Of a stretch of 64,000 nucleotides of DNA, positions 27,769 to 42,133 are shown piece by piece. Under the pieces are notes generated by a model. The model was not told the origin of the DNA and did no database searches. It saw nothing but the letters and a program-made list of their open reading frames with translations. Numbering within the stretch: position 1 is the stretch's first letter; each line of letters begins with the position of its first letter. Source of the stretch: Acidipropionibacterium virtanenii (GTDB lineage Bacteria; Actinomycetota; Actinomycetes; Propionibacteriales; Propionibacteriaceae); assembly GCF_003325455.1 (NCBI RefSeq), contig NZ_CP025198.1:3286001-3350000 (forward strand). Reading direction: 5' to 3'. The translations under genes and the position numbers were made by a program.

Positions 27769-29820
27769 GTGGTGATCACGCGGGAGACCCGTCGCGGCCG
27801 GGCGCTCGACCCGGCACCACTGCCGGTCTGGATCGCCGTCCTGGCGGTGGCCGGCATCTGCGCCCTGGTGCTGCCGCTGCTCGGCATGGGGCAGCGGGTG
27901 CCGTGGACGCGGTTGCCCGCCCTGATCGGCACCGAAGCGGCGCGCGACGCCCTGTCGTTGAGCCTGCGCACCTGCCTGTCCGCGATCCTCATCGATCTGC
28001 TGCTCGGCGTCCCGTTGGCGCTGCTGCTGGCCCGCGACTGGCGGGGTGTGCGGGTGGCGCGGGTGGTGGTGCTGCTGCCGCTCTCCCTGCCGCCGGTGGT
28101 GGCCGGGATAGCGCTGCTGGCCACCTTCGGGCGGCGCGGGCTGATCGGCGCCCGGCTGGAGGCCGCCGGCGTCTCGATCGCCTTCTCCACGGTGGCCGTG
28201 GTGATGGCCCAGGTCTTCGTCTCCCTGCCCTTCCTGGTCACCACCCTGGAGTCGGCCGTCCGCACCCGTCCGTGGGGCCTGGAGGAGACCGCCGCCGCGC
28301 TGGGGGCCGGGCCGAGCAGGGTGCTGGCCACCATCACCCTGCCGACCATGACACCGGCCCTGACCCGTGGCACCGCCCTGGCGGCGGCCCGGTGCCTGGG
28401 CGAGTTCGGGGCGACGCTGACCTTCGCCGGGTCGTTGCAGGGCACCACGCGCACCATGCCGCTGGAGATCTACCTGGCCCGGGAGACCGATTCGGACACC
28501 GCGCTGGCGCTGGGCCTGATGCTGGTGGTCGTCGGGGCGATCGTGGTGGCCCTCACCGAGTGGACGCCCCGACGACGGCGGAGGCGGCGCGGTGCAGGGG
28601 TTCTCGGCGCGAAGATCCTCGGCGCGAAGGCAGCCGCTCCCGCTGCGGCTGTCTCCCCCTCCCCCGCGGATCCCGATGAGCCGACGTCAGCACCCAGCTC
28701 GGTGCGCGTCCGGGGGCGGATCCGGGAGCGCGGCTGGGATGTCGATCTCAGGGTGGACGCCGGTGAGGTGATTGCTGTGATGGGTCACAACGGCGCCGGG
28801 AAATCCACCCTGGCCGGGGTGATCACCGGGCTGCTGGGGCTGGACTCGGGAGAGCTGCGGATCGGCGGGAGGCTGGTCGACGGCGCGGGCGTGCTTCTGC
28901 CTCCGCGACGTCGCGGAGTGGCGCTGCTCACCCAGCAGGCACGGATCTTCGGGCACATGTCCGTGCTCGACAACGTGGCCTACGGGCCCCGCAGCCACGG
29001 CGCGTCGCGGGAGCGGGCCCGCCGGATCGCCCGTGCGGAGCTGGCGGGGGCGGGCTGCCTGGATCTGGCCGGCCGGCGCGGAGATGAGCTGTCAGGGGGG
29101 CAGGCCGCCCGGGTCGGACTGGCGCGGGCGCTGGCCGTGGCCCCCGACGTGCTCATCCTGGACGAGCCGACCGCGGCTCTGGACGTGGAGTCCCGCGCGA
29201 TGGTGCAGCGGGTGCTGCGCCGACGACTGGCGGCCACCGGAACGACGGCGATCCTGATCACCCACGACGTCATCGATGCCGTGCAGGTGGCCTCCCGCCT
29301 GCTGGTGATGGACGGCGGGCGGGTGGTCGCCGACGGCTCGCCATCGGCCCTGCTGGCCTCCCCCACCACCGGTTTCACCGCCCGGCTGGCCGGGGTGAAC
29401 ATGATCCGGGGACGGGCGCAGGTGGACAGCGACCATCTGGTGTCGGTGTCGATCGGGGAGCGGCGCCTGGTGGCCGTGACGGGATCGGGGGAGGAGACGT
29501 CAGGGGCGGAGGGGGCGGAGACCATCGCCGAGGGGGACGAGGTCGCCCTGGTCTTCGCCCCCCGCACCGTTGCCCTGCACCGCGAACCGGTCCCCGGATC
29601 ACCGCGCACCTGTCTGCCCGGGACGGTGGCCGGGGTCGAGCAGTCGGGCGGGCTGGTGACGGTGCTGGTCACCCTGGACTCCGGGGAGACCATCAGGGCT
29701 CAGGTGACCATCGGCGCCTGGACCGAGCTGGGGATCTCGCCGGGCGAGACGCTGTGGTGCACGATCAAGGCCACCCAGGTCCGGGCGGTGCCGGCGGGTC
29801 CGGCGCAGGCGGGTCGCTGA
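27769..29820 (+). CDS. modBC: Fused molybdate ABC permease-ATPase ModBC
   Basis: The single 683-residue chain joins a ModB permease (residues about 1-265, with the EAA-type loop LEETAAALGAGPSRVLATITLP) to a ModC ATPase. ModC elements are Walker A GHNGAGKST, signature LSGGQAARVGLARALA, Walker B LILDEPTAAL and a C-terminal TOBE-like region. An Arg-rich linker RRRRRRRG and an Ala/Pro stretch with a short repeat (GAKILGAK) separate the parts. Two adjacent GTGs follow GGAGG; 27769 overlaps that site, so 27772 is an equal candidate. Confidence 0.93.
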   Translation: MVITRETRRGRALDPAPLPVWIAVLAVAGICALVLPLLGMGQRVPWTRLPALIGTEAARDALSLSLRTCLSAILIDLLLGVPLALLLARDWRGVRVARVVVLLPLSLPPVVAGIALLATFGRRGLIGARLEAAGVSIAFSTVAVVMAQVFVSLPFLVTTLESAVRTRPWGLEETAAALGAGPSRVLATITLPTMTPALTRGTALAAARCLGEFGATLTFAGSLQGTTRTMPLEIYLARETDSDTALALGLMLVVVGAIVVALTEWTPRRRRRRRGAGVLGAKILGAKAAAPAAAVSPSPADPDEPTSAPSSVRVRGRIRERGWDVDLRVDAGEVIAVMGHNGAGKSTLAGVITGLLGLDSGELRIGGRLVDGAGVLLPPRRRGVALLTQQARIFGHMSVLDNVAYGPRSHGASRERARRIARAELAGAGCLDLAGRRGDELSGGQAARVGLARALAVAPDVLILDEPTAALDVESRAMVQRVLRRRLAATGTTAILITHDVIDAVQVASRLLVMDGGRVVADGSPSALLASPTTGFTARLAGVNMIRGRAQVDSDHLVSVSIGERRLVAVTGSGEETSGAEGAETIAEGDEVALVFAPRTVALHREPVPGSPRTCLPGTVAGVEQSGGLVTVLVTLDSGETIRAQVTIGAWTELGISPGETLWCTIKATQVRAVPAGPAQAGR

Positions 29821-29823
29821 GGA

Positions 29824-29839
29824 CGGGCCGGAGGGCCCG
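29824..29839. terminator. Weak hairpin after modBC
   Basis: CGGGCC-ggag-GGCCCG forms a 6-bp stem right after the modBC stop, between it and a convergent gene. There is no T-tract, so terminator function is uncertain. Confidence 0.35.
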
Positions 29840-29881
29840 GTACCGAAGGCCGCGCGCCGATGACGCGGCGGCCCCGGCAGC

Positions 29882-30307
29882 TCAGCCCACGGCCCTCCTG
29901 ACCAGCTCTCGCAGCCGCTGCTCGACGGCGTCGTCCACCTCGACCACGGCGAAGGAGACCGGCCACATCGGGCCGTCGTCCAGGTTCGCGTGCTCGTCGA
30001 AGTTCACCGTGCCGTAGCGGGTCTTGAACTTGGACGCCGGCTGGTAGAAGACGATGTTCGTCCCGTCGGCGGCGTAGGTGGGGAATCCGTACCAGGTCTT
30101 GGGTGTCAGCCGGGGCGCCTCCTCGGAGACGATCCGGTGCAGCAGCACCGCGACCTCCTTGTCGACGCCGTCGAGGGCGTCGATGGCGGCGGCGCAGGCC
30201 TCCAGATCCTTGGCGATCTTCGCGGCCCCCTTGAGGCCCTTGGTGGTGCGCAACTCCTCGGCGCGCTGCTTCATGGCGGCGCGCTCCTCGTCACTGAATC
30301 CGCTCAT
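29882..30307 (-). CDS. DUF1801-family protein
   Basis: The 141-residue protein contains APRLTPKTWYGFPTYAADGTNIVFYQPASKFKTRYGTVNF, matching the DUF1801/YdhG-like fold sometimes called an iron chaperone. A helical N-terminus (FSDEERAAMKQRAEEL) precedes it. GAGGAG lies 7 nt upstream of the ATG. It is monocistronic and convergent with modBC. Function is not established. Confidence 0.8.
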   Translation of the reverse strand: MSGFSDEERAAMKQRAEELRTTKGLKGAAKIAKDLEACAAAIDALDGVDKEVAVLLHRIVSEEAPRLTPKTWYGFPTYAADGTNIVFYQPASKFKTRYGTVNFDEHANLDDGPMWPVSFAVVEVDDAVEQRLRELVRRAVG

Positions 30308-30432
30308 GTCATGCTCCTCGGTCGATCCTCGGCCTGCGGGCCGGGCTTTCGCCGCGGGCCGGTGTCCGCCACCCTATGCGCCCGGAAGGGGCACCTCGCC
30401 CCCGTCGCCGTCGGTTCAGGCCACGGGATATC

Positions 30433-30502
30433 CACGCAGCGCCAGAGTTCGAACGCACCGCCTGGAATACCTGGCGCCGCGTTCGAACTCTGGCGCTGCG
30501 TG
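30433..30502. repeat. Hairpin repeat, copy B (24-bp perfect arms, 22-nt loop)
   Basis: Perfect inverted arms of 24 bp (30433-30456 and 30479-30502; core GCGCCAGAGTTCGAACGC) enclose a 22-nt loop with GGAATACCTGGCGC. It shares loop sequence, loop length and outer GCGCCAGAGT with copy A at 17662, while the inner arm bases differ and co-vary. It sits in a 459-bp gene-free stretch. The remainder of that stretch holds GC-rich DNA and the promoter described next. Confidence 0.9.
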
Positions 30503-30614
30503 AGGGTGGGTGGGGGGCACGGCCGGCCAGGGCGGGGAGGTGGCTGATCCGGAGTGAGAGGGACATGGCCGGCCAGGAGTGGACGGGCGTGGGTTCCAGG
30601 TTGTTCTTGTCCAT

Positions 30615-30679
30615 ATTTCAAGACTTGGTCTCACATTTCAAGACGTGGCTTGCCACGTCCGCGGCCCTGCCGTTAGCGT
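30615..30679 (+). promoter_or_regulatory. Promoter with paired activator-type repeats for the sulfur operon
   Basis: ATTTCAAGAC occurs at 30615-30624 and 30635-30644, exactly 20 bp apart. Both copies continue as (T/G)TGG. The second merges into a perfect palindrome GACGTGGC-tt-GCCACGTC (30642-30659). TTGCCA (30650-30655) and TAGCGT (30674-30679) with an 18-bp spacer form a plausible promoter overlapped by the palindrome. A LysR- or TetR-type sulfur regulator would fit; that is inference. Confidence 0.6.
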
Positions 30680-30766
30680 GACCGTTGACGTCGCCGAGAG
30701 CGGTGACGTCAGGCCCGGACCCACCGGGCATCAGTGGGGTCCCGGACCCCAGATCGAGGAGACACT

Positions 30767-30859
30767 GTGAGCACCAGGATGCGCACCGCTGGAGGCACGG
30801 CACCAACCGCCCGCCACCAGATGTGTATGTGCATGTGTCCGGTCTCCTCCTGTTGCTGA
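30767..30859 (+). CDS. Short Met/Cys-rich leader peptide (putative attenuator)
   Basis: The 30-residue ORF starts at GTG 30767 (GAGGAG 5 nt upstream; alternative ATG at 30779) and ends MCMCMCPVSSCC before TGA. Five of the last eleven residues are cysteine, interleaved with methionine. Cysteine-rich leader ORFs upstream of sulfur genes are known in actinobacteria and act as cysteine-responsive attenuators. This one lies about 200 bp before an ABC transporter operon carrying thiol-transferase-like genes. Ribosome stalling when Cys-tRNA (or Met-tRNA) is low would be the expected signal. I found no convincing terminator/antiterminator pair in 30860-31065. Confidence 0.7.
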   Translation: MSTRMRTAGGTAPTARHQMCMCMCPVSSCC

Positions 30860-31065
30860 TCCGCGGACACCGCCGCATCACCGGCGAGCGCATCACCAGC
30901 TGCTGAACCCCGGTAACCCCGGAGACGCCAGCACCCCAGCACCCCAGGAGACCCGCCGCGCAGGGCTGACCTCTTCCCGCGCACCGCTCCCCCGTCATCA
31001 CGCCGCATCACCCAGTACCCGTGCGCCCCGCGGCGCCCCGGTCTGGCCCATCAGATGGAACACAT

Positions 31066-32085
31066 ATGCAGCATCTTGTCTCCGACACCTCTCTCGGCGG
31101 CCCCGTCGAGCAGGCCCCGGAAGCCCGTTCCAGGGCACAGCGCTCCGCCCTGATCCGCCTCATCGTCTCCCGGATCCTGGGCGCCGTCTTCGTCCTGTGG
31201 GCCGCGGTCACGCTGACCTTCCTGGCCGTCCACGCCACCCCGGGCGACACCGTCTCCCTGCTGCTCGGCCAGAACCGCGACGACCCGGTGCTGCGGGCCC
31301 GCACCATCGCGCGCTGGGGCCTCGACCACCCGTTGTGGTACCAGTACCTGCTCTACCTGGTGCGCATTCCCACCGGCGATCTCGGCGTCAGCTACACCTT
31401 CAGCCGCCCGGTCACCGAGCTGCTCGCCGAGTCCATCGGCCCCACCCTCCAACTGGCCGGGGCAGCCACCGTCGGCGCGGTGATCATCGCCTACCTCATC
31501 ACCCTCGGCACATCGACCCGGCTGCGGCGCCTGCGGCCGGTCTCCCAGGTCATCGAACTCGTCCTGCTCTCGGCCCCGGCCTTCTGGATCGGGATCGTGC
31601 TGCTGCTGGTCCTCAGCTTCAAGCTCGGCTGGTTCTCCATCGTCGACCCGAACTCCCCGCAGGCCCTGGTGCTGCCCGCCCTGTCCCTGGCCCTTCCGAT
31701 CGGCTGCTACCTGGCGCAGATCCTGCGCGACGGCGCCGACCGGGCCATGGAACAGCCTTTCGCCCTCACCTCGCGCTCCCGCGGTCTCTCGGAATCCCGC
31801 GTCTACGCCGGCCACGCCCTCAAGCACGGCACGGTCCCGGTGATCACCGTGCTGGGACTCATCATCGGCAGCCTCATCGGCGGCGCGGTGGTCGTCGAGC
31901 AGGTCTTCGGCCGCGCCGGCCTGGGCCAGATCGCCGTCCAGGCGGTCAACGTCAAGGACGTGCCCCTCATCCTCGGCGTCACCATCGTCGCCACCGCGGC
32001 CTTCGTCATCGCCTCCACCCTGGTCGACGTCGCCGCCCTGGCCATCGACCCGCGGCTGCGCGCCGCCTCAACCGCCAGGAGCTGA
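31066..32085 (+). CDS. ABC transporter permease (DppB type)
   Basis: The 339-residue permease has six membrane helices and dipeptide-transporter motifs: ATPGDTVSLLLGQNRDDPVL, WYQYLLYLVRIPTGDLGVSYTFSRPV and, in the EAA loop, ALTSRSRGLSESRVYAGHALKHGTVPVITVLG. It imports peptides or peptide-like compounds with the genes that follow. The ATG at 31066 (MQHLVSD) is preceded by a weak AGATGGA; upstream in-frame codons look non-coding. It is the first structural gene after the Cys-rich leader. Confidence 0.92.
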   Translation: MQHLVSDTSLGGPVEQAPEARSRAQRSALIRLIVSRILGAVFVLWAAVTLTFLAVHATPGDTVSLLLGQNRDDPVLRARTIARWGLDHPLWYQYLLYLVRIPTGDLGVSYTFSRPVTELLAESIGPTLQLAGAATVGAVIIAYLITLGTSTRLRRLRPVSQVIELVLLSAPAFWIGIVLLLVLSFKLGWFSIVDPNSPQALVLPALSLALPIGCYLAQILRDGADRAMEQPFALTSRSRGLSESRVYAGHALKHGTVPVITVLGLIIGSLIGGAVVVEQVFGRAGLGQIAVQAVNVKDVPLILGVTIVATAAFVIASTLVDVAALAIDPRLRAASTARS

Positions 32086-32087
32086 CC

Positions 32088-32939
32088 GTGGCCGTCCTCA
32101 CACTTCCCGTCTCCGCCCGCCGCCCCGGCACCGGCCGCTCGAACCTCACCATCGTCGCCTCCGGCACCGTGCTGGGTCTGGCCGCCGTCACCGCGATCGT
32201 CCCGAACCTGCTCGTCCGGACCGACCCGCTGTTCGCCGACCCGACCGCCTCCCTGGCGGCTCCCTCGGCCGCCCACTGGGCCGGCACCGACCTGCAGGGC
32301 CGCGACGTCTTCTCCCGGATCATCCACGGGGCGCGCTACTCCCTGTCCATCGGGCTGGGGGCCACCGCACTGGCCCTGGCGGCCGGCCTGCTGCTCGGCA
32401 TCCTCGCCGCCACCGCGCCCCGCTGGGCAGACATGGTCGTCAGCCGGGCCGTCGACATCCTCGCGGCCTTCCCGGAGGTGCTGCTGGCGCTGCTCTTCAT
32501 CGCGCTGACCGGCCCCGGCGTCACCAATCTCATCGTGGCCATCGGCATCGCCGGCATTCCCAAGTACGCCCGGCTGGTGCGCACCCAGGTCCTCACCACC
32601 CGTCAGGCCGGCTACGTGGAACAGGCCCGCACCTACGGCATCACCGGGTTCCGCTCTCTGCTGCGTCACGTGCTGCCCAACGCGCTGGGCTCCCTGCCGA
32701 TCATCGCCACCATCGGGCTGGGCGAGGCCATCGTCTCCTCGGCGGCGCTGAGCTTCCTGGGGCTGGGCCCCCAGCCCCCCAATCCCGAATGGGGGCTCAT
32801 GATCGCCGAGTCCCGCGACTACCTGCGTCATGCCTGGTGGCTCGGGGTGTTCCCGGGAGCCGCCGTCACCGTCGTCGTCATCGCCGCCACCGTGCTGGGC
32901 CGCACCCTCCAGGCCCGTTACGAGAGAAGGTCGTCATGA
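32088..32939 (+). CDS. ABC transporter permease (DppC type)
   Basis: The 283-residue permease has HWAGTDLQGRDVFSRIIHGARYSLSIGLGA, a DppC/OppC signature, and the EAA loop YVEQARTYGITGFRSLLRHVLPNALGSLP. It pairs with the upstream DppB-type subunit to form the channel. The GTG at 32088 follows CCAGGAG, 2 bp after the first permease. The stop overlaps the ATPase start (ATGA). Confidence 0.92.
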   Translation: MAVLTLPVSARRPGTGRSNLTIVASGTVLGLAAVTAIVPNLLVRTDPLFADPTASLAAPSAAHWAGTDLQGRDVFSRIIHGARYSLSIGLGATALALAAGLLLGILAATAPRWADMVVSRAVDILAAFPEVLLALLFIALTGPGVTNLIVAIGIAGIPKYARLVRTQVLTTRQAGYVEQARTYGITGFRSLLRHVLPNALGSLPIIATIGLGEAIVSSAALSFLGLGPQPPNPEWGLMIAESRDYLRHAWWLGVFPGAAVTVVVIAATVLGRTLQARYERRSS

Positions 32940-34702
32940 GCATCACCAGGAACCGACCAGGTCACCGTCTCCGCGTGGTTCCCGACGCGGCCGATGCCGC
33001 GGCCGGCGCGGACACCGACAGCACCGAGACCGGCACAAGGCCGCTGGTCGACATCCGCAACCTCGACGTCCGCTTCACCGGGCGCCGCGAGGTGCATGCG
33101 GTGCGCGGGATCTCGCTGACCATCAATCCCGGCGAGGCCGTGGCCATCGTCGGGGAGTCCGGATCCGGGAAGTCCGTCACCTCGCGCAGCATCGTCGGCC
33201 TGGCCGGCGACAACGCCCAGGTGAGCGCCGACGAGTTCAGCGTCCTCGGACGCGACGCCCTGAGACTTCGCGAGAGCCAGTGGCGCGACATCCGCGGACG
33301 CCGGATCGGATTCGTCCTGCAGGACGCCCTGACCTCCCTGGACCCGCTGCGCACCGTCGGCCGCGAGATCGCCGAGACCCTGCGCACCCACCGGATCGTG
33401 GGTCGGCGGCAGATTCCCGGACGGGTCGACGAGCTTCTGCGCGAGGCCGGCATCCCCGACGCCGAGGTCCGCTCCCGCCAGTACCCCCACCAGCTGTCGG
33501 GCGGGCTGCGGCAGCGCGCGCTGATCGCCTCGGCGCTGGCCGGCGGGCCCGACCTGCTCATCGCCGACGAGCCCACCACCGCCCTGGATGTGACCGTCCA
33601 GGCGCAGATCCTCGACCTGCTGGAGGCCAGGCGGGCAGACGGCACGGCCCTGCTGCTGGTCTCCCACGACCTGGCTGTGGTCTCGCGGATCGCCGACCGG
33701 GTGCTGGTGATGCACGACGGCGTCGTGGTGGAGGAGGGCCCCACCACCCGGGTGCTGTCGAACCCCGCCGACTCCTACACCCGCTCGCTGCTGGCGGCGG
33801 TCCCCTCGGCGTCGACCAGGGGCACCCGGCTGTCCACGGGCTCCCCTGTTCCCATCAGCACAGCCCCGATCAGCACGGGTTCCGACGCCGAGGGGCACGA
33901 TGACGCCGCCCCGGTGCTCGAGGCCGCGGGCGTCACCAAGCGCTACCCGCTGCCCGGCGGGGGATCGCGCACCGCCGTCGACGACGTCAGCCTCACCCTG
34001 GCGCCCGGCCAGAAGCTCGGCATCGTCGGGGAGTCCGGATCGGGCAAGAGCACCCTGGCCCGGCTGCTGCTGGATCTCACCCTCCCCGATGAGGGCGAGA
34101 TCAGGATCGGCGGACTGCCGTGGTCCCGGAAGGAGGGGGTGGACGCCGACCTGCGACGTCAGGTGCAGTTCATCTCCCAGGATCCGCTCGGCTCCTTCGA
34201 CCCCCGCTACTCGATCGGCGAGATCATCGCCGAGCCGCTGGGCATCAGTCTCCGCGCGACCGGGGCCCGCGAGGCGGTGGCCGATCTGCTCGGCTCCGTC
34301 GGCCTGGACCCGAGCTTCATCGACGCCTCGCCGAGACGGCTGTCGGGCGGGCAGCGCCAGCGCATCGCCATCGCCCGCGCCCTGGCCCTGGAGCCCCGGG
34401 CGCTCATCTGCGACGAGCCCGTCTCGGCCCTGGACGTCTCCATCCAGGCCGCGGTGCTCGACCTGTTCTCCGACCTGGCCGAGCGCACCGGCACCGCCCT
34501 GGTGTTCATCTCCCACGACCTGGGTGTCGTCCACCACCTCGTAGATCAGGTGCTGGTGATGCGCTACGGCCGGGTCATCGAGTCCGGCGACGTCGACGAC
34601 GTCTTCACCCATCCCCTGCACCCCTACACCCAGGAACTGGTGGCCGCGATCCCCCGGCTCACCACCACCGACGCCCCCCGGCCCGGACGACTGCACGCCT
34701 GA
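32936..34702 (+). CDS. Double ABC ATPase (fused DppD-DppF type)
   Basis: The 588-residue protein carries two complete ATPase domains. Both have GESGSGKS Walker A motifs and Walker B segments (LLIADEPTTALD and ALICDEPVSALD), with signatures LSGGLRQRALIASAL and LSGGQRQRIAIARAL. Each ends with the oligopeptide-transporter C-terminal extension (NPADSYTRSLLAAVP and HPLHPYTQELVAAIP). It energises the two permeases. The start overlaps the preceding stop by four bases with AAGG upstream. Confidence 0.95.
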   Translation: MSITRNRPGHRLRVVPDAADAAAGADTDSTETGTRPLVDIRNLDVRFTGRREVHAVRGISLTINPGEAVAIVGESGSGKSVTSRSIVGLAGDNAQVSADEFSVLGRDALRLRESQWRDIRGRRIGFVLQDALTSLDPLRTVGREIAETLRTHRIVGRRQIPGRVDELLREAGIPDAEVRSRQYPHQLSGGLRQRALIASALAGGPDLLIADEPTTALDVTVQAQILDLLEARRADGTALLLVSHDLAVVSRIADRVLVMHDGVVVEEGPTTRVLSNPADSYTRSLLAAVPSASTRGTRLSTGSPVPISTAPISTGSDAEGHDDAAPVLEAAGVTKRYPLPGGGSRTAVDDVSLTLAPGQKLGIVGESGSGKSTLARLLLDLTLPDEGEIRIGGLPWSRKEGVDADLRRQVQFISQDPLGSFDPRYSIGEIIAEPLGISLRATGAREAVADLLGSVGLDPSFIDASPRRLSGGQRQRIAIARALALEPRALICDEPVSALDVSIQAAVLDLFSDLAERTGTALVFISHDLGVVHHLVDQVLVMRYGRVIESGDVDDVFTHPLHPYTQELVAAIPRLTTTDAPRPGRLHA

Positions 34703-34776
34703 GCCGGCGTCCCTTCCTCCGCTGTATCCCCCTTCCCCATCACCCCTTCCCCGCCATCACTCGCAAGGAATCCGAC

Positions 34777-36477
34777 ATGACCTCTCCCCTCGATCCGTTC
34801 AACCGCCCCGTCGGCCGACGCTCGCTCATCATGGCCGCCGCCGGCCTGGCCGCACTCGGACCGGTCCTGAGCGCCTGCGGCGGATCATCCTCGAGCGCCT
34901 CCCCGGCAACCCCCACCGGCAAGCCCGTCGACGGCGGCGCGCTGATCTGGGCCATCGAGACCCAGTTGTCCTCGGCCAACCCGCACACCAACGGCCAGGA
35001 CAAGGCCCGCCCGATCCTGCGCAACGCCTTCGACTCGCTGATCTTCCTGGACGGCGACGGCAAGTACCAGCCGTGGCTCGCCAGGACGATCACCCCGTCG
35101 GCCGACGGCACGGTCCTCACTCTGGAACTGCGCACCGACGTCACCTTCTCCGACGGGGAGAAGTTCAACGCGGCCGCCGTCGTCAAGAACTTCGACAAGC
35201 TCTCCGACGCCAAGTACGCCACCTCGGCGGCCGGCGCGCTCAGCTCCCTGAAGAAGTACGAGGCCACCGGGCCGTACACGGTGAAATTCACCCTCTCCAA
35301 GCCCGACAACTACTTCCTCACCTGGCTGGCAGGCGTGACCGCGGCCCCCATCTCCCCCAAGAGCCTGGCCCTGTCCATGGACGAGCTGCAGGCCGGCGGC
35401 CCGAAGATCGCCGGTACCGGGCCCTTCACGATCAGCACGTACTCCCTCAACACCGAGATCGTCTTCACCCGACGCAAGGACTACGCCTGGGCGCCGGCCG
35501 CGATCGCCAAGGGCCAGAAGGCCGCCCACCTCGAGAAGGTGACCTACCGCACCCTCAAGGAGGGCTCGGCGCGCACCGGCGCACTGTCCCGCTCCCAGGT
35601 GGACGTCGCCTCAGACATCCAGCCGCTGGACGTGGAGACCTTCACCTCGAATCCGAGGTTCGCCTATGTGCGGGCCACTGCGGCGGGCTCCCCGTACTCG
35701 CTGTACTTCAACGTCTCCAAGACACCCTTCGAGGATATCCGGGTCCGTCAGGCGTTCGCCCAGGGGGCCGATATCACCGCCATCGTCAACAGCATCTATC
35801 GCGGCACCTATCAGCGCGCCTGGGCTCCCTACAATCTTCTCGGCCCCTACCAGGATCCGTCCCTGAAGAACTGGCTGAAATTCGACAAGGCGGCTGCCAA
35901 CAAACTGCTCGACAAGGCCGGCTGGGCGACGAAGAATGCGTCCGGCATCCGCACCAAGAGGGGCAAGACGCTGACGGTGCGCACCGTCTCGGCCTCCGAC
36001 TACGTCCGCGAGAGCCGGGACCAGCTCAATGTGGCCCTGGCTGCGGCGCTCAAGCAGAATATCGGCATCGACTACAAGTTCCAGGCGGTGGACCTGGGCA
36101 CCGAGGCCAACCGCGCCAAGGCCAACGACTACGAGATCTTCGACAACTCCTACGGCGGTGCCGATCCGGTGGTGCCCTTCGACCTGCTGTACTACTCGTC
36201 CGATCCGTCGCGCGGATACATCGCCCGCGGACGATACAACGACAAGCAGCTCGAGAAATTGATCGACGACGCCCGGTTCAGCAATGACACGGCGGCCCGC
36301 AAGAAGACCTACAAGACCATTCAGGAGTACGTCACCAAGGAGAAGTACTACGCCCTTCCGCTGGCGGTGACCCAGGACACCTACGCCTACAATGCTGAGA
36401 AGGTCGCCGGGATCGTGGCCGATCCGGCCACCGGCGGTCCCTTCAGCGCCTACACCGCGTGGGTGGCGTCGAAGTGA
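34777..36477 (+). CDS. Extracellular solute-binding lipoprotein (family 5, peptide type)
   Basis: The 566-residue lipoprotein has a twin-arginine-like RRSLIMAAAG and lipobox LSAC (Cys34). The sequence DGGALIWAIETQLSSANPHTNG, then TLELRTDVTFSDGEKFNAAAVVKNFDKL and the C-terminal KTYKTIQEYVTKEKYYALPLAV are typical of SBP_bac_5 proteins. It captures the transported compound, which could be a sulfur-containing peptide or conjugate given the operon. AAGGA precedes the ATG. Its stop overlaps the next gene. Confidence 0.93.
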   Translation: MTSPLDPFNRPVGRRSLIMAAAGLAALGPVLSACGGSSSSASPATPTGKPVDGGALIWAIETQLSSANPHTNGQDKARPILRNAFDSLIFLDGDGKYQPWLARTITPSADGTVLTLELRTDVTFSDGEKFNAAAVVKNFDKLSDAKYATSAAGALSSLKKYEATGPYTVKFTLSKPDNYFLTWLAGVTAAPISPKSLALSMDELQAGGPKIAGTGPFTISTYSLNTEIVFTRRKDYAWAPAAIAKGQKAAHLEKVTYRTLKEGSARTGALSRSQVDVASDIQPLDVETFTSNPRFAYVRATAAGSPYSLYFNVSKTPFEDIRVRQAFAQGADITAIVNSIYRGTYQRAWAPYNLLGPYQDPSLKNWLKFDKAAANKLLDKAGWATKNASGIRTKRGKTLTVRTVSASDYVRESRDQLNVALAAALKQNIGIDYKFQAVDLGTEANRAKANDYEIFDNSYGGADPVVPFDLLYYSSDPSRGYIARGRYNDKQLEKLIDDARFSNDTAARKKTYKTIQEYVTKEKYYALPLAVTQDTYAYNAEKVAGIVADPATGGPFSAYTAWVASK

Positions 36478-37508
36478 CGGCGCTCATCGAGGGCAACTCC
36501 CCCGGCTCGGTCGTTCACGAGGCGAGCCCCGTCGACTTCGACACCTACGGGACGATCTACGAGCCGCGCGGCGAGGCCCGGAAAGCCCCCTTCGGCGCCG
36601 GGGCCGATGCCGACGTCTACCCCTTCCGGGGCCGCATCGATCCGAACGGGGAGTTTCCGCCGGAGGCGGGCCGCTACCACCTGTACGTGTCCCTGGCCTG
36701 CCCCTTCGCCCACCGCACACTCATCGTGCGGGCGCTCAAGGGTCTGGAGGAGGTGATCGGCGTCTCGGTGGTCGATCCGATCCGCGACGGGCGCGGCTGG
36801 GCCTTCCGGGCCGGCGCTGATCCGTCCCGGCGGCACGGCGGCCTCGGCCAGACCCTGGACCGGGCCAACGGCTTCGCCCTCCTGTCCCAGGCCTACGAGG
36901 CCTCGGTGCCCGGCGGCGTCTACACCGGGCGGGTCTCGGTGCCGGTGCTGTGGGACACCCGCAGCGGCCAGGTGGTCTCGAACCACTATCCGGAGATCAC
37001 CCTGGATCTGGGTTCCCAGTTCAACCAGTGGGCCGGCGAGCCGGGGCTCGACCTGTACCCCGTGCCGCTGCGCGACGAGATCGACGCCCTCAACGACGTC
37101 GTCGGCCCTCACCTCAACGAGGGCGTCTACCACGCAGGATTCGCCACCACGCAGAGTGATTACGAGGCCGGGTACCGGGAGGTCTTCGAGACCCTCGATC
37201 TGCTGGAGGAGCTGCTGGCCGACGGCCGCGAGTTCCTGGTCGGCGGCCGGCTCACCGAGGCCGATATCCGGCTGTGGCCCACTCTGGCACGATTCGATTC
37301 GGTCTACCACGGCCATTTCAAGCTCAATCGAAACCGCCTGGTAGACCTACCGAATCTGTGGGCCTACACCCGTCGGCTGTACGCCATTCCGGCCTTCGGA
37401 GCCACCACCGATCTTGACCAGATCCGGCGCCATTACTACGGCACCCAGCTGCACATCAACCCCACCGGGATCGTGCCGCCGTCGCCGCGCATCGACTGGT
37501 CCCTGTAA
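36474..37508 (+). CDS. Xi-class glutathionyl-hydroquinone-reductase-like protein (CPFAH active site)
   Basis: The 344-residue protein matches the YqjG/ECM4 (Xi) group, which reductively removes thiols from S-glutathionyl or similar conjugates. The active-site motif is Cys76-Pro-Phe-Ala-His in VSLACPFAHRTLIVRALKGLEEVIGVSVV, then VPVLWDTRSGQVVSNHYPEI, LYPVPLRDEID and the C-terminal FLVGGRLTEADIRLWPTLARFD. The GTG at 36474 overlaps the binding-protein stop. Actinobacteria usually use mycothiol, so the physiological conjugate is uncertain. Confidence 0.88.
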   Translation: MTALIEGNSPGSVVHEASPVDFDTYGTIYEPRGEARKAPFGAGADADVYPFRGRIDPNGEFPPEAGRYHLYVSLACPFAHRTLIVRALKGLEEVIGVSVVDPIRDGRGWAFRAGADPSRRHGGLGQTLDRANGFALLSQAYEASVPGGVYTGRVSVPVLWDTRSGQVVSNHYPEITLDLGSQFNQWAGEPGLDLYPVPLRDEIDALNDVVGPHLNEGVYHAGFATTQSDYEAGYREVFETLDLLEELLADGREFLVGGRLTEADIRLWPTLARFDSVYHGHFKLNRNRLVDLPNLWAYTRRLYAIPAFGATTDLDQIRRHYYGTQLHINPTGIVPPSPRIDWSL

Positions 37509-37541
37509 CCCCACCCGAGAAGAACGAGAGAAGGAGACGAT

Positions 37542-38639
37542 ATGTCCGCCGTCGTCGCAGATTTCGAGACCGAGCTCAACACCGAGGAGCCCAAGACCTT
37601 CGAACCGGTCAAGGCGTTCCCCGAGACCAATACCGAGCAGACCCCCGACGGGGCCTTCCGGCGCCAGCGCAACCTCTTCCCGGTGCGCTTCGGCGAGGGG
37701 CCGGGCCAGTACCCGGCCGAGCCGGGGCGCTACCGGCTGCTGGGTTCGGTGAGCTGCGGCTGGTGCAGGCGCCAGCTCATCGCGATCCGGCTGCTCGGCC
37801 TCGAGGAGGCCCTGCCCTTCGTGCCGCTCTACGGCCGCGACGGCGCCGGATGGCGGATCAGCGAGACCCAGGGCGACGTCGTCGCGAAGTGGGGGTCGGA
37901 CCGGCTCAACTCCTTCTACGAGCGCACCATCCCGGGCTTCACGGGCCGGGGCACCTCCCCGACGATCATCGACATCGAGACCGGGAAAGTGGTCACGAAC
38001 TCCTACCACACCATCGATCTGGATCTTGCGAGCGTGTGGAGGCCCTTCCACAAGGCCGACGCCCCGGATCTGTATCCCGAGGATCTGCGCGAGGAGATCA
38101 ATCTGCTCAACCAGCAGATCTTCGACGACGTCAACAACGGCACCTACAAGGTGATCTTCGCCACCAACCCGCAGGCCGCCCGGGCCGCGCTGGGAATCTT
38201 CGAGGCCCGCCTGGCCGATTACGATTTCCGGCTGGACTCGCGACGCTATCTGTTCGGCGACCGTCTCACCGATTCCGACATCCGGCTGTTCCAGACGCTG
38301 TCCTCCTACGAGCGCAGCTACCGTCCGCGGCTGGCCGCGATTCTGGGGGAGGACGACGTCAAGCATCTGACCGACTTCGGGAATCTGTGGGGATATGCCC
38401 GCGATCTCTTCCAGCACGGTTTCGTCGACGATCGGGAGCTCTACTTCCTCAACCTGCTGCCGGGACCCTCGGGCGAGTACGTCCAGGGACAGGGCTTCGC
38501 CGAGGGGATCGAGCTGCCCGACGCCGCCGAGGCCCTGGCGGCGTGGCGCGAGCCGAGCGGGCGCGAGCAGCTGGCCGGTTCGCCGCTGTACTCCGGCCCG
38601 GGATCGGGCGGCTCCTTCGAACTGTGGAACCTGAAGTGA
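37542..38639 (+). CDS. Xi-class GST-like protein with a CGWC active site
   Basis: The 365-residue paralogue of the preceding protein aligns throughout (RYRLLGSVSCGWCRRQLIAIRLLGLEEA, SPTIIDIETGKVVTNSYHTI, YLFGDRLTDSDIRLFQTL). In place of CPFAH it has Cys72-Gly-Trp-Cys75, a thioredoxin-like two-cysteine site suited to dithiol-disulfide chemistry. The ATG has GAGAAGGAGA upstream, 33 bp after the first gene. Two tandem paralogues with different cysteines suggest sequential thiol reactions. Confidence 0.85.
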   Translation: MSAVVADFETELNTEEPKTFEPVKAFPETNTEQTPDGAFRRQRNLFPVRFGEGPGQYPAEPGRYRLLGSVSCGWCRRQLIAIRLLGLEEALPFVPLYGRDGAGWRISETQGDVVAKWGSDRLNSFYERTIPGFTGRGTSPTIIDIETGKVVTNSYHTIDLDLASVWRPFHKADAPDLYPEDLREEINLLNQQIFDDVNNGTYKVIFATNPQAARAALGIFEARLADYDFRLDSRRYLFGDRLTDSDIRLFQTLSSYERSYRPRLAAILGEDDVKHLTDFGNLWGYARDLFQHGFVDDRELYFLNLLPGPSGEYVQGQGFAEGIELPDAAEALAAWREPSGREQLAGSPLYSGPGSGGSFELWNLK

Positions 38640-40087
38640 GCACCGCCGTCAGGCCCGTCATCGACGCCCACTCGTATCCGCCCGAGGTGATCGCCTCGCT
38701 GCGGCCGATCCCGGTCGGCCTGTGGCTGCAGGTCCTGGGCGACTCCCGGGTCGGCTCGGGCCCCCTGGTGCTGCGCCACGCGCTGCCCGAGGAGTACGAG
38801 GAGGTGGGCGACGTCCTGGAGGCGGCGTTCACCACGGGCTGCTGGTCGACCCCGGAGTACATCGCGAGCCTGCACGCCATCGAGTCCCGGGCGGCGACGT
38901 CGAATGTGTGGGTGGTGGCCGATGACGACGGCGTCCTGGCGGCCGTCCTCACACCCCAGCCGCGGTATCTGGAGTCCGACGCCTTCACCTTCAACATCCT
39001 GGGGGTCGGACCGCGGGGCCGCGGTCTGGGTCTGGGCCGGCTTCTCACCGATCATGCCGTGGACCTCGCCCGATCGCTGGGGCTGGGCACCGTGGAGATC
39101 CACTCCGGGCCGCAGATGACCGCGGCCCACAAGGTCTATGTCGACTACGGATTCGTGCGGCGCATCGAACAGGAGACGGCTGTGGTCGACGGCCACCAGC
39201 GGTTGCGGAGCTTCACCTACCGGGTGCCCGATCCGGTGGCCGACCCGCCGTCGATCGAACGCGCCGCCGCGCCGGCCGTCGATTCGCCCTTCCCGAGACC
39301 AGGAGATCCTGTGAGCATCACCGCACTGCGCCCCGCCGGGGTTGAGGACGCCGGCCGCTTCCACCCCGAGGCGCCCCGGCGCCCCGGGCCGGCCGAGCTG
39401 CCGGACCGGCGGCTGCGGCTGGTGGCCCCGGCGTCCTCTCCCCGCAGTTGGGGGGCGGTGCTGGGGGCGCGTATCGCGGCACCCGAATGGGTTCGGGTGG
39501 AATGGTCGCAGGAGGTGGCTTCGCCGGTGCTGCTGGACGGGGAGGGACTCCTGGTGAGCGACGACTGGTCGTGGATCTCGCGGTCTCTGGCCACGGCGTC
39601 CGGGAGCGGGATCTACCCGGCGGCCCGGCGCGAGGAGATCGACACCCTGGAGCAGGTGATCGGCGCCGAGCTCATCGGCGCGCTGGAGGAGGTGGTGTTC
39701 TCCACCGCGCAACCGGTGCGCGACGCCGTCTCCCGGCTGCTCTTCGCCCGCCTAGGACTGCTCGATCTCCGGCTGGCGGATCGACGGTTCCTGCTCGGCG
39801 ATGAGCCGACCACCGCCGACCTGACCCTGTTCGGGCTGCTGCTCGGCTGGGACCTGCACTACCGGGCGCACCTGGGCTGGGGCGCGGCCTCCCTGGTCGA
39901 CTACCCGAACCTGTGGGCCTGGGCGCGCCGACTGGCCGCCGACCCGCAGGTGCTGTCGGCCGGGGACCGGGTGGCGGCTGGCCTGGACGCCGGCCCCGAC
40001 GGCACCTTCGCCGAACCCTGGGGACCGGCGCTGCCGGTCGAGGGGATCGACGACATCCGGGCCGCATGGTGGGAGCCCGTGAAGTAG
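38636..40087 (+). CDS. GNAT acetyltransferase fused to a cysteine-less GST-like domain
   Basis: One open frame of 483 residues. Residues about 40-195 form a GNAT domain (VWVVADDDGVLAAVLTPQ, acetyl-CoA loop GPRGRGLGLGRLL, HKVYVDYGFVRR). Residues about 226-483 resemble the Xi-GST proteins upstream (RRFLLGDEPTTADLTLFGLLLGWDLHYR, ALPVEGIDDIRAAWWEP), but the active-site region reads APASSPRSWGA, without cysteine. An internal GTG at 39311 (residue 226) follows AGGAGATCCT, so the second half may also be made alone. The GTG start at 38636 overlaps the previous stop. Confidence 0.8.
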   Translation: MSTAVRPVIDAHSYPPEVIASLRPIPVGLWLQVLGDSRVGSGPLVLRHALPEEYEEVGDVLEAAFTTGCWSTPEYIASLHAIESRAATSNVWVVADDDGVLAAVLTPQPRYLESDAFTFNILGVGPRGRGLGLGRLLTDHAVDLARSLGLGTVEIHSGPQMTAAHKVYVDYGFVRRIEQETAVVDGHQRLRSFTYRVPDPVADPPSIERAAAPAVDSPFPRPGDPVSITALRPAGVEDAGRFHPEAPRRPGPAELPDRRLRLVAPASSPRSWGAVLGARIAAPEWVRVEWSQEVASPVLLDGEGLLVSDDWSWISRSLATASGSGIYPAARREEIDTLEQVIGAELIGALEEVVFSTAQPVRDAVSRLLFARLGLLDLRLADRRFLLGDEPTTADLTLFGLLLGWDLHYRAHLGWGAASLVDYPNLWAWARRLAADPQVLSAGDRVAAGLDAGPDGTFAEPWGPALPVEGIDDIRAAWWEPVK

Positions 40088-40090
40088 CGA

Positions 40091-40161
40091 CAAATTCTCG
40101 TTCCAGAACCCCCGGATCGACGTCGGCGACCACGATCATGCGGTTCTGGAGCGAGAAATTG
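40091..40161. repeat. Long hairpin after the thiol operon
   Basis: Arms of 20 bp (40091-40110 and 40142-40161, 18 of 20 paired; core TTCTCG(T/C)TCCAGAACC) enclose a 31-nt loop. It starts three bases after the GNAT-GST stop and ends 39 bp before the next gene. It could be a terminator or a further repeat family; no T-tract follows. Confidence 0.6.
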
Positions 40162-40200
40162 CGCCCCTACACTGGGCCACACACCGACGGAGGAGGACAC

Positions 40201-40488
40201 ATGGCCACGCCCACCATCACCGACAACACCGAGGAGCACCGCTACGAGGCGCGCCTGGACGGCAAACTCGCCGGATACCTGGACTACGAGCGGACGGGCG
40301 ACGTCGTCGACCTGCCCCACACCTTGGTCTTCCCTCAGTACGAGGGCAAGGGCGTCGCCGGGGCACTGGTCCGCCACGGCCTCGACGACATCCGGGGCCG
40401 CGGACTGACTGTCACGCCGACCTGCCCCTACGTCGACTCATGGATCCAGCGCCATCCCGACTACGCCGACCTCGTGCACCGGGGTTGA
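40201..40488 (+). CDS. Small GNAT-like (YjdJ-type) N-acetyltransferase
   Basis: The 95-residue protein reads RYEARLDGKLAGYLDYERTGDVVDLPHTLVFPQYEGKGVAGALVRHGLDDIRGRGLTVTPTCPYVDSW, the compact single-domain acetyltransferase fold seen in YjdJ/GtsA-like proteins, with the EGKGVAG acetyl-CoA loop. GGAGG lies about 7 nt before the ATG. A small ORF follows directly after its stop. The acceptor is unknown. Confidence 0.85.
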   Translation: MATPTITDNTEEHRYEARLDGKLAGYLDYERTGDVVDLPHTLVFPQYEGKGVAGALVRHGLDDIRGRGLTVTPTCPYVDSWIQRHPDYADLVHRG

Positions 40489-40674
40489 ATGCGGGCAGCC
40501 GTGGGTAACGATCTTGAGCGCGACCCGGACCTCACGGAATGGGAGCAGCACATCGCCGACCGGACCGCAGACCTCCGCGCGGGCCGCATCAAGGCCGTCC
40601 CCGCCGAAGAGGTCGACCTGATGCTCGGATGCAGCGGTGAGCCGCCCGCATCCACACTCGACGAGATTTCCTGA
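40489..40674 (+). CDS. Small hypothetical protein
   Basis: The 61-residue ORF starts at the ATG immediately after the GNAT stop (MRAAVGNDLERDPDLTEWEQHIADRTADLRAGRIKAVPAEEVDLML). The acidic, helical composition is reminiscent of small antitoxin-like addiction-module components, but no toxin follows; next comes a strong terminator. It may be translated by coupling. Weakly supported. Confidence 0.45.
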   Translation: MRAAVGNDLERDPDLTEWEQHIADRTADLRAGRIKAVPAEEVDLMLGCSGEPPASTLDEIS

Positions 40675-40714
40675 TCGCTCCGGGCCTGGCCAGCAACACT
40701 GCCTGACGCGCAGA

Positions 40715-40759
40715 ATGCGGCGGTGCCGCCGACCGTTCGGGTCGGCGGCACCGCCGCAT
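40715..40759. terminator. Strong bidirectional terminator hairpin
   Basis: A perfect 20-bp stem (ATGCGGCGGTGCCGCCGACC and its complement) with a 5-nt loop GTTCG lies between the convergent small ORF and the dps gene. It can serve both strands. T-rich tails are weak, as usual in high-GC actinobacteria. Confidence 0.8.
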
Positions 40760-40783
40760 CATGACTCGTTGTGACTACCAGGC

Positions 40784-41317
40784 TCAGGCCTTCTCGGGAG
40801 CGCGGGTCTCGGCGCTGATGAACCAGGCCTGCTGCTCCAGCTTCTGGGTGTACTCGTGCAGCATGTCCGAGGTGGTCGGATCCTCGGCGTCGACGGCGTC
40901 ATGCACCTCGCGCATAGTGGCGACGGTGGCATCGATGGCGGCCACCATCAGGTCGATGGCGTCGTGGGTCGACACCTCGCCCTGCGGGAACTGCTCGATG
41001 GAGGTGCGGGCGGCGACCACCGACGGACGGCCGTCGGGGGTGGCGTGCAGGGCGCGCAGACGCTCGGCGAACTCGTCGGACCCTTCGCGGGCGATGTCAA
41101 CGACCTCATCGAGATTGAGGTGAAGGTCGCGGAAGTTCGGCCCGACGATATTCCAGTGGGCCTGCTTGCCGACCAGGCTCAGGGCGATGAAATCGACGAC
41201 CACCTTCTGCAGGTTGTCGCTCAGCTCCTTGGACGCGCGGAAGCCGTGCTCAGCGTTCTCGACGGCTGTCCGGGTGTCTCCAGCGTGCTTCGGAACGGTG
41301 ATGGACTGCTCGGTCAT
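40784..41317 (-). CDS. dps: Dps-family DNA-binding ferritin-like protein
   Basis: The 177-residue protein oxidises and stores iron and protects DNA. The ferroxidase and interface residues appear in LVGKQAHWNIVGPNFRDLHLNLDEVVDIAREGSDEFAERL (His, Asp and Glu ligands of Dps). The N-terminal extension MTEQSITVPKHAGDT is short and polar. An AAGGAG site is upstream. It is monocistronic, next to the Crp/Fnr-type regulator on the same strand. Confidence 0.93.
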   Translation of the reverse strand: MTEQSITVPKHAGDTRTAVENAEHGFRASKELSDNLQKVVVDFIALSLVGKQAHWNIVGPNFRDLHLNLDEVVDIAREGSDEFAERLRALHATPDGRPSVVAARTSIEQFPQGEVSTHDAIDLMVAAIDATVATMREVHDAVDAEDPTTSDMLHEYTQKLEQQAWFISAETRAPEKA

Positions 41318-41443
41318 ATGACCTGACTCCTTATCTCGTTGGCTTCTCTTACGCTCTCTGTGGGGTGGAACGTCTCCCCGTGCCCCACTATTCCGTGTCG
41401 TAGTGCTCGGCGTGTCGCGATCGGGCGGATCCGGCCGACGCCC

Positions 41444-42133
41444 TCAGCCGGCGGCCAGCTCTTCCAGGGCGTCGACGTCGCGCAGCGTGATCTCCGGGCC
41501 CGAGGTGGCGATCAACCCTTTGGACCGCAGGGCGTCGAGCCCCCGGCTGAACGACTCCGGGGTCATCCCGAGCAGCGAGGCGGTGTCCTTCTTGGCCATC
41601 GGCAGCCTCACCCGGTAGCCGCCCCGGCCCGCGACTCCCGGCTGATCCAGCAGATAGCCGGCGATCCGCGCCGGGCGACTCGTGCTGGTCAGGCTCAACC
41701 GATGCTCGGCGTCGTCCAGCCGCTGGGTCAGCGAGCGCAGCATCGCCATCGCCACCGACGGATGGGCGGCGATCAAGGGCGCCAGATCGGCCCGGGAGAA
41801 GACGCACATCCGGGTGGGGGCGGTGGCCTCGATGAGGTAGGTCGGCGCCTCCCCTGTGAGGAAGGACCCCTCCCCCACGAAGTCTCCGGGACCGGCCAGC
41901 CGCAGCACGCGCTCATGCCCGCCGGCCGACATCCGGGACACCTTCACCTGCCCCCGGTGGACGACGGCCAGGCGCCCTGTCGCCGGGCCGAAGGCCTGGC
42001 CGCGGTCCAGCGCGGTCGGCCTTGCCAGGGCGCCGACCGCGTCCTGATCGGCCGGGCTCAGACCGCCGAACAGCGGCACCAGGCGCACACAGCTGACGTG
42101 CTCGGTGACGTCGGTGAGAGGCAGGTTCTTCAC
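41444..42133 (-). CDS. Crp/Fnr-family transcriptional regulator
   Basis: The 229-residue protein has a cyclic-nucleotide-type beta barrel (LAVVHRGQVKVSRMSAGGHERVLRLAGPGDFVGEGSFLTGEAPTYLIEA) and a C-terminal HTH (KKDTASLLGMTPESFSRGLDALRSKGLI). The recognition helix has E-x2-S-R, which in FNR reads TTGAT-type half-sites. Only two cysteines are present (Cys15 and one near residue 110), so an FNR-style 4Fe-4S cluster seems unlikely. A matching CTTGAC-N4-GTCAAG palindrome lies 38 bp upstream, implying autoregulation and control of the divergent metal genes. Confidence 0.88.
   Translation of the reverse strand: MKNLPLTDVTEHVSCVRLVPLFGGLSPADQDAVGALARPTALDRGQAFGPATGRLAVVHRGQVKVSRMSAGGHERVLRLAGPGDFVGEGSFLTGEAPTYLIEATAPTRMCVFSRADLAPLIAAHPSVAMAMLRSLTQRLDDAEHRLSLTSTSRPARIAGYLLDQPGVAGRGGYRVRLPMAKKDTASLLGMTPESFSRGLDALRSKGLIATSGPEITLRDVDALEELAAG

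Follow-up and report, generated by a model that had tools for sequence, protein, structure and literature searches.

The short, cysteine-rich open reading frame (ORF) that precedes an importer/GST/GNAT operon in the 64,000-nt stretch of Acidipropionibacterium virtanenii DNA analysed here (the window) is, to judge from its sequence, likely to be a cysteine-responsive upstream ORF (uORF) that attenuates this operon. Such a role had been proposed in the initial annotation of the window, and it is by comparison that the proposal stands, as Cys-rich leaders are found in all four congeners concerned, at 14 of 51 homologous operon loci and at 16 of 68 cysE loci. Translation of the leader, its response to cysteine, the direction of control and the use of Rho are what we infer.

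The leader ORF and its surroundings

The sequence bears out the GAGGAG Shine-Dalgarno (SD) motif, the GTG start and the 30 codons ending in MCMCMCPVSSCC that had been annotated at this place (Table 1). The SD lies 5 nt before the GTG and is invariant in four congeners, which disfavours a leaderless start at the 5' end of the transcript. Five of the last 11 codons are Cys codons, and 206 nt separate the stop from the ATG of the first operon gene. No other ORF of the window, on either strand, is preceded by an SD, has no more than 45 codons and carries five or more Cys among its last 12. Exact matches to ATGTGYATGTGY number three in the 3.43-Mb genome, every one inside leader ORFs: two of them overlap in the present leader and the third lies in a second leader considered below. 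Profile searches with NCBIfam and Pfam gave no match over cut-off for the leader peptide, nor did NCBIfam for seven related leaders, and the three weak Rfam matches obtained for 28000-42000 are all below gathering score, with none of them in the leader region.

As the initial annotation had it, the genes downstream encode a peptide-type ABC importer, thiol-transferase-like proteins and a GNAT fusion, GST domains being the only kind of domain found in the thiol-transferase-like proteins, which that annotation had placed in the Xi class. The best family matches of the importer are nickel/peptide permeases, below cut-off, and a GST1 plasmid search led to distant homologues. We infer that the operon imports and processes an organosulphur compound; a leader of the cysteine type is a hint at such a role, in which an organosulphur or thiol compound would be used when cysteine is scarce.

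Table 1. Positions in the window of the leader, its predicted signals and the genes of the operon
Feature	Position	Strand	Remarks
Box GGTCTCA of candidate promoter	30627-30633	+	
Candidate promoter region	30627-30679	+	read by eye
-35-like TTGCCA	30650-30655	+	18-nt spacer to -10-like
-10-like TAGCGT	30674-30679	+	
SD GAGGAG of leader ORF	30756-30761	+	invariant in 4/4 congeners
Leader ORF	30767-30859	+	GTG...TGA, 30 codons, VSTRMRTAGGTAPTARHQMCMCMCPVSSCC
Predicted hairpin inside leader ORF	30771-30832	+	RNAalifold, 4 congeners
Met-Cys repeat ATGTGTATGTGCATGTGT (MCMCMC)	30821-30838	+	in leader
Terminal Cys-Cys-stop of leader	30851-30859	+	TGT TGC TGA
Gene-free spacer, candidate Rho-loading (rut) region	30860-31065	+	C 47%, G 25%
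Peptide/nickel-type ABC importer permease (dppB-like)	31066-32085	+	first gene
Second permease (dppC-like)	32088-32939	+	
Fused double ATPase (dppD-dppF-like)	32936-34702	+	
Family-5 solute-binding protein (dppA-like)	34777-36477	+	
GST-fold protein 1 (GST1)	36459-37508	+	GST_N_2 + GST_C_2
GST-fold protein 2 (GST2)	37542-38639	+	comparison anchor; GST_C_2 at its cut-off score; alignment
GNAT acetyltransferase fused to GST C-terminal domain	38636-40087	+	

Since a consensus promoter scan of the leader region found nothing, the promoter listed in Table 1 is to be taken as a candidate. Its box is kept as GRTCTCA in four aligned congeners and its -10-like stretch in altered form. This box sits at the junction of two direct repeats, CATATTTCAAGACTTGG and CACATTTCAAGACGTGG, which lie 20 nt apart at 30612-30648, just 5' of the candidate promoter, and are a possible regulator site. 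Further upstream, between a minus-strand ORF (29882-30307) that has no family match and the leader region, there is an inverted repeat (30433-30502; 33 nt, 91% complementary, 4 nt between the arms), which may end transcription from the neighbours or may be a repeat element.

Conservation and recurrence of the leader

Five Acidipropionibacterium genomes were compared, namely that of the window and G003, G027, G047 and G063. The leader is found in all four that carry the operon or the GST2 gene; none was seen in the fifth, G027, which has no orthologous dppB (best 30%) and no GST2 match at 1e-20 and whose single MCMC site is not a leader. In G063 the leader precedes GST2 and an orthologous dppB is lacking (best 32%), and G047 has the two permeases, the ATPase and the GNAT-GST gene and shows no GST2 match. 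Besides the window peptide VSTRMRTAGGTAPTARHQMCMCMCPVSSCC the leaders read VSDLMHTAGGTATTARRQMCMCMRSVSCCC (G003), VNAIVHTVGGLAISARRPMCMCMPCPSALDPMCCR (G047) and VNPFMHSAGGPASIASRPMCMCPVCCMCCR (G063). In the alignment the four share the SD, the GTG and the stretch ATGTGYATGTG, and each has a Cys codon next to its stop or, in two of them, separated from it by a single Arg codon. The leader-to-gene spacers, on the other hand, are unlike one another. The window and G003 leaders differ at 5, 5 and 3 sites in the three codon positions and by eight amino-acid changes. With this lack of third-position bias, a point against the leader, no ordinary coding constraint is seen on the peptide as such. One might suspect a chance ORF with a TG-rich repeat, as GC-rich DNA often has short ORFs and ATGTG is a simple repeat. 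We give this explanation next to no weight: comparable SD-preceded Cys-rich ORFs were absent from all 60 simulated windows (first-order Markov versions of the window), and the ORF is kept in the congeners while its Cys codons alternate between TGT and TGC and while one leader, that of G047, has taken up an in-frame insertion of 15 nt.

A lack of conservation of the ORF and its Cys codons at homologous loci would have spoken against the initial annotation, and comparison did not refute it: within the genus the elements just named (SD, GTG, MCMC and end Cys codons) are kept, and in other genera Cys-rich leaders turn up again at some of the homologous operons and before some cysE genes. To recognise such leaders we used a Met-blind rule, which calls for at least three Cys in the last ten codons and a start codon further up; at the operons it covered the 600 nt that precede the first operon gene or GST2 together with the initial 40 nt of that gene. 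Contigs fetched twice were counted once, and five loci were left out, two having no GST2 orthologue (L049, L050) and three having the operon start or gene cut off (L080, L094, L097). Cys-rich ORF ends precede 14 of 51 operon loci (54 stretches) against 1.4 expected, and 16 of 68 cysE loci (17 ORF ends) against 1.8 expected, where the expected counts are the rate elsewhere in the same loci and are somewhat low because control ORFs were made unique and length was not, and where Poisson figures overstate the case since the loci are related, five of the 16 cysE leader loci belonging to one genus and two being near-duplicates. The 68 loci derive from 76 cysE places in 75 of 147 genomes, from which the eight weakest (44-48% identity) were removed.

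Three of the 14 operon loci are those of Acidipropionibacterium, the G047 leader failing the strict rule with two Cys in its last ten codons; three are chance-like (L058, L062, L076), and eight are credible leaders elsewhere (L033, L041, L042, L044, L045, L091, L093, L096). L058 and L062 are the only Bifidobacteriaceae loci found by the rule, which yielded no Cys-rich ORF end at the proteobacterial operon loci. Short Cys leaders stand before GST2 homologues in Propionibacteriaceae metagenome bins at L044 (MVETVLNPVCCRLCL), L045 (MAKVMLISVCCCLCL), L093 and L096 (both ..SCCCR), ending about 140-325 nt upstream. The rule finds no leader at 37 of the 51 operons and 52 of the 68 cysE loci, so that many of these loci evidently do without such a device. 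Where it occurs, the peptides differ between genera while Cys codons by the stop recur, as would be expected of a leader that is read codon by codon.

The same recurrence bears on the idea that the ORF encodes a functional Cys-rich peptide, either a metal binder or a RiPP precursor. MCMCMC and the clustered Cys residues are possible metal ligands, the importer is similar to nickel importers, and the peptide of one congener has a weak match to thiopeptides (E 2.6, 8.1 bits as compared to a cut-off of 29). However, unrelated Cys-rich ORFs occupy the equivalent place at other loci and before cysE, and there is no peptide-modifying enzyme among the ten translations of the region (the leader and nine ORFs, 29885-40485), which makes a functional peptide highly improbable.

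The methionine codons and a predicted in-ORF hairpin

Why would a cysteine leader carry alternating Met codons? The initial annotation had suggested that the leader reports both cysteine and methionine. Comparison argues well for the cysteine part and faintly for the methionine part, because the excess of Met shrinks once two Met-Cys genera are set aside and because the Met-Cys codons may be the arm of a hairpin. Within the last 12 codons, Met accounts for 29 of 241 non-Cys codons (12%) in 31 leaders but 18 of 858 (2%) in 100 control ORFs (p 2e-9). Once the two Met-Cys genera and a near-duplicate are removed, the count falls to 9 of 176 (p 0.034) in the 22 leaders that are left, three of which contain MC.

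In the five genus genomes ATGTGYATGTGY is found at eight distinct places, of which four are the importer/GST leaders, two are the second leader and two lie elsewhere. The second leader, which is MVERIVAARRPDRARVMCMCSCPR in the window genome and MAEHSVATRRPHRARVMCMCPCPR in the genome of G003, precedes an ABC importer with a binding protein similar to the SsuA subfamily, at a score below cut-off; the ends of this leader read ..RARVMCMCSCPR (L212, G000:C1 about 2250056, minus strand) and ..RARVMCMCPCPR (L105, G003). Across the family MCMC has 63 matches in 46 of 147 genomes, as compared to about 50, by our own count, for the reversed control. Reading 25 further MCMC loci yielded 15 frames that run more than 25 codons past the motif, seven short frames that we do not take as leaders, and three leaders, two before cysE (L130, L131) and one before a tauD-type gene (L122); three more of the 63 matches are cysE leaders from the genus of L130 and L131, and the other 26 were left unread. 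The L122 leader (G014) ends in ..MPRCWCMCMCGR and precedes the gene of a TauD-type dioxygenase. By scan none of the leaders at L122, L130 and L131 has an SD, and they are perhaps leaderless. Leaders ending in ..ALMCMCCC(C)RLG lie 61-74 nt before cysE in five genomes of one other genus of the family (L143-L147). Phylum-wide, MCMCxC occurs in five of 396 genomes and coincides with leaders only at the two sites of the window genome, and we have rejected the motif as a general actinobacterial tag. Finally, ..CMCRM.. stands ahead of MetN-like genes at eight of ten loci of one genus, which is probably Streptomyces, as its leaders are near-identical in sequence to the one of S. lividans; L218 has a variant without the motif, and at L226 no leader was seen.

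If the leader were a dual sulphur sensor, the ribosome would stall on shortage of either Met or Cys and the leader would report the total sulphur supply. The overall Met excess would agree with this, as would the fact that Met-Cys runs precede importer/GST genes and an SsuA-like importer in Acidipropionibacterium, cysE in five genomes of another genus and tauD in a third, and that the S. lividans metNIQ leader (..ARCMCRRMCAF) has been published as Met-dependent (PMC8079986), with the ..CMCRM.. leaders of MetN-like genes adding to it. Then again, the excess is small outside the two Met-Cys genera, ATGTGYATGTGY is barely more frequent in the family than its reverse, RNA pairing may account for the Met codons, and AUG stalling would be a blunt signal since every protein needs Met. 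We consider dual sensing doubtful; the Met-Cys alternation nonetheless makes the reading of two amino acids by one leader testable.

Pairing of the Met-Cys codons within the ORF is predicted by RNAalifold from the four congeners, and RNA pairing is therefore an alternative to amino-acid sensing in explaining why the Met codons are there. The outer arm of this hairpin joins codons 5-7 (30779-30785) to the Met-Cys codons (30822-30828), and its inner stem joins 30791-30801 to 30809-30818 (GGAGGC..GGC/GCC.GCC). Accordingly worded, the alternative is that AUGUGYAUG pairs with an upstream AUGCACAY-like stretch of the same ORF to form either the first hairpin of an attenuator or a pause hairpin, and that cysteine alone is sensed. 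Duplex energies between the motif and the upstream 62 nt agree with it, averaging -11.4 at 12 leader sites as compared to -8.2 at 24 non-leader sites (p 0.0008), and exact upstream complements of the Met-Cys codons measure 6-9 nt in the five cysE leaders L143-L147 and 8 nt in G063. The difference is, however, driven mainly by these five related cysE leaders; taken singly the importer/GST leaders give p values of 0.105, 0.465, 0.095 and 0.060, none of them below 0.05, and the tauD leader has no upstream complement. Moreover, covariation in the hairpin is scant, most pairs being invariant among the four congeners, and when the whole ORF is folded, three of the four importer/GST leaders have an ordinary energy (z-scores 0.15, -0.49, -1.94 and 0.04), the window leader being no more stable than its shuffles; five metN leaders score from -1.45 to -2.67. 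Folded as a single sequence, the window ORF keeps the inner stem and pairs its Met-Cys codons otherwise. A structural role of the Met codons is thus a possibility that we hold tentatively.

For the whole leader-to-gene region, RNAalifold of the four congeners gave no consistent fold but the in-ORF hairpin, many of the other predicted pairs being broken in one or more of the sequences. Leader GGUCUCCU could be paired by eye with downstream AGGAGACC in the window and in G003; the other two congeners did not show this pairing, and it was rejected.

The spacer and the proposed mode of control

A terminator scan of 30300-31200 found no intrinsic terminator between the leader and the first gene, and a classical terminator/antiterminator attenuator was rejected on this ground. 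The spacer is marked by its base composition. Ranked among 150-nt stretches of the window, its excess of C over G (C>G skew) reaches the 99.0 percentile; the values for the congener spacers (157-296 nt) are 99.6, 96.9 and 97.8, and that for the 90 nt following the second leader is 99.5. Among stretches of 60 or 120 nt downstream of leaders, three doubtful leaders being excluded, 25 of 28 have C>G and the other three are zero or negative. Before cysE, the skew of the last 70 nt averages 0.27 at the 16 loci with a leader as compared to -0.01 at the 52 without (p 2e-5); the difference holds against an intergenic-only control of 24 loci without a long upstream frame (p 0.0005) and when each genus is reduced to its mean (six with a leader, 14 without, p 0.02), one with-leader mean being 0.00. 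C>G spacers at cysE thus go with the presence of a Cys leader and on average are not found where none is seen. A finding to the contrary is that, of nine other upstream stretches of the window, eight range from -0.19 to 0.17 but the 150-nt stretch preceding dppA within the operon scores 0.42. Such C-rich, G-poor spacers fit the loading of Rho after the ribosome has left, although they do not prove it.

We suggest the following course of events. With charged tRNA-Cys in plentiful supply, the ribosome would read the short ORF, terminate at its stop codon next to the Cys codons and leave, whereupon the C-rich, G-poor spacer would be exposed and transcription would stop there, most likely via Rho. 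When cysteine is short, the ribosome would stall on the Met-Cys or the terminal Cys codons, and the stalled ribosome would melt the in-ORF hairpin and shield or re-fold the spacer, so that the operon is transcribed.

Stalling could also act on translation, by freeing the ribosome-binding site of the first gene rather than by blocking Rho. The SD of this gene (ATG at 31066) is weak, cysteine genes of M. smegmatis have been described as being under translation attenuation (PMC13236596), and in E. coli uORF-controlled translation is coupled with Rho (PMC12121999). Yet no consistent pairing that would hide the start of the first gene is found in the four congeners, whose spacers are dissimilar, and we regard translational control as somewhat unlikely. 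Attenuation of transcription by a cysteine-responsive leader is the reading that we prefer.

Comparison with known leaders

P. acnes belongs to the same family as Acidipropionibacterium. Cys leaders without terminators have been predicted in Mycobacterium and P. acnes, and Rho was suggested to act there (PMC1262725). The present leader resembles those of the Mycobacterium and P. acnes cys operons and of B. longum cbs in being a short ORF with Cys codons near its stop; those leaders precede sulphur operons, as the present one may do, and, as far as the available text of that paper goes, have no conserved terminator hairpin either. It differs from them in its target operon, in the alternating Met-Cys run and in that the C>G skew of the spacer was measured against a control, which in that text does not accompany the proposal of Rho-dependent attenuation. 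Our measurements thus supply a controlled C>G sign for a proposal which those who made it in 2005 described as weak (PMC1262725).

The polycysteine sORFs of M. smegmatis, reported to be cysteine-dependent (Canestrari et al. 2020, as cited in PMC9031893, PMC9094748 and PMC13236596), likewise are upstream ORFs rich in Cys codons. Unlike the present leader with its strong SD, they are leaderless, and the available portions of the three citing papers make no mention of a Met-Cys alternation. The metL leader of S. lividans metNIQ (MSTTSDRTPATEATTTPGARCMCRRMCAF) shares with ours the alternation of Met and Cys near its end, the lack of a typical Rho-independent terminator and the position before a known or, in our case, putative importer of a sulphur compound; it is different in being leaderless, unrelated in sequence and followed by a Met importer, and according to the accessible part of the report its authors point to Met and Thr, not to Cys (PMC8079986). 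From another phylum, uORFC-8-2 of the Rhodobacterales is similar in its tandem Cys codons and in that it is presumed to be read by the ribosome, whereas it has an intrinsic terminator and a conserved fold and precedes another gene, cysS (PMC8632094).

Could mixed Met-Cys leaders be a recurring actinobacterial class, separately arisen before importer/GST, sulphonate-type importer, cysE, tauD and metNIQ genes, with Met-Cys codons that signal a shortage of either sulphur amino acid and at the same time supply the first hairpin of an attenuator acting through Rho? The literature searched, largely without subscription journals, held no description of such a class, and we think this broader view unlikely. 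The present leader has those sequence features of actinobacterial cysteine leaders that were looked for, and would on these grounds be one of them, its links to sulphur and to Rho being indirect. What sets it apart from the known actinobacterial cysteine leaders is its SD-led start, its Met-Cys run and its target, by which ribosome-read cysteine control would be extended to a peptide-importer/GST operon.
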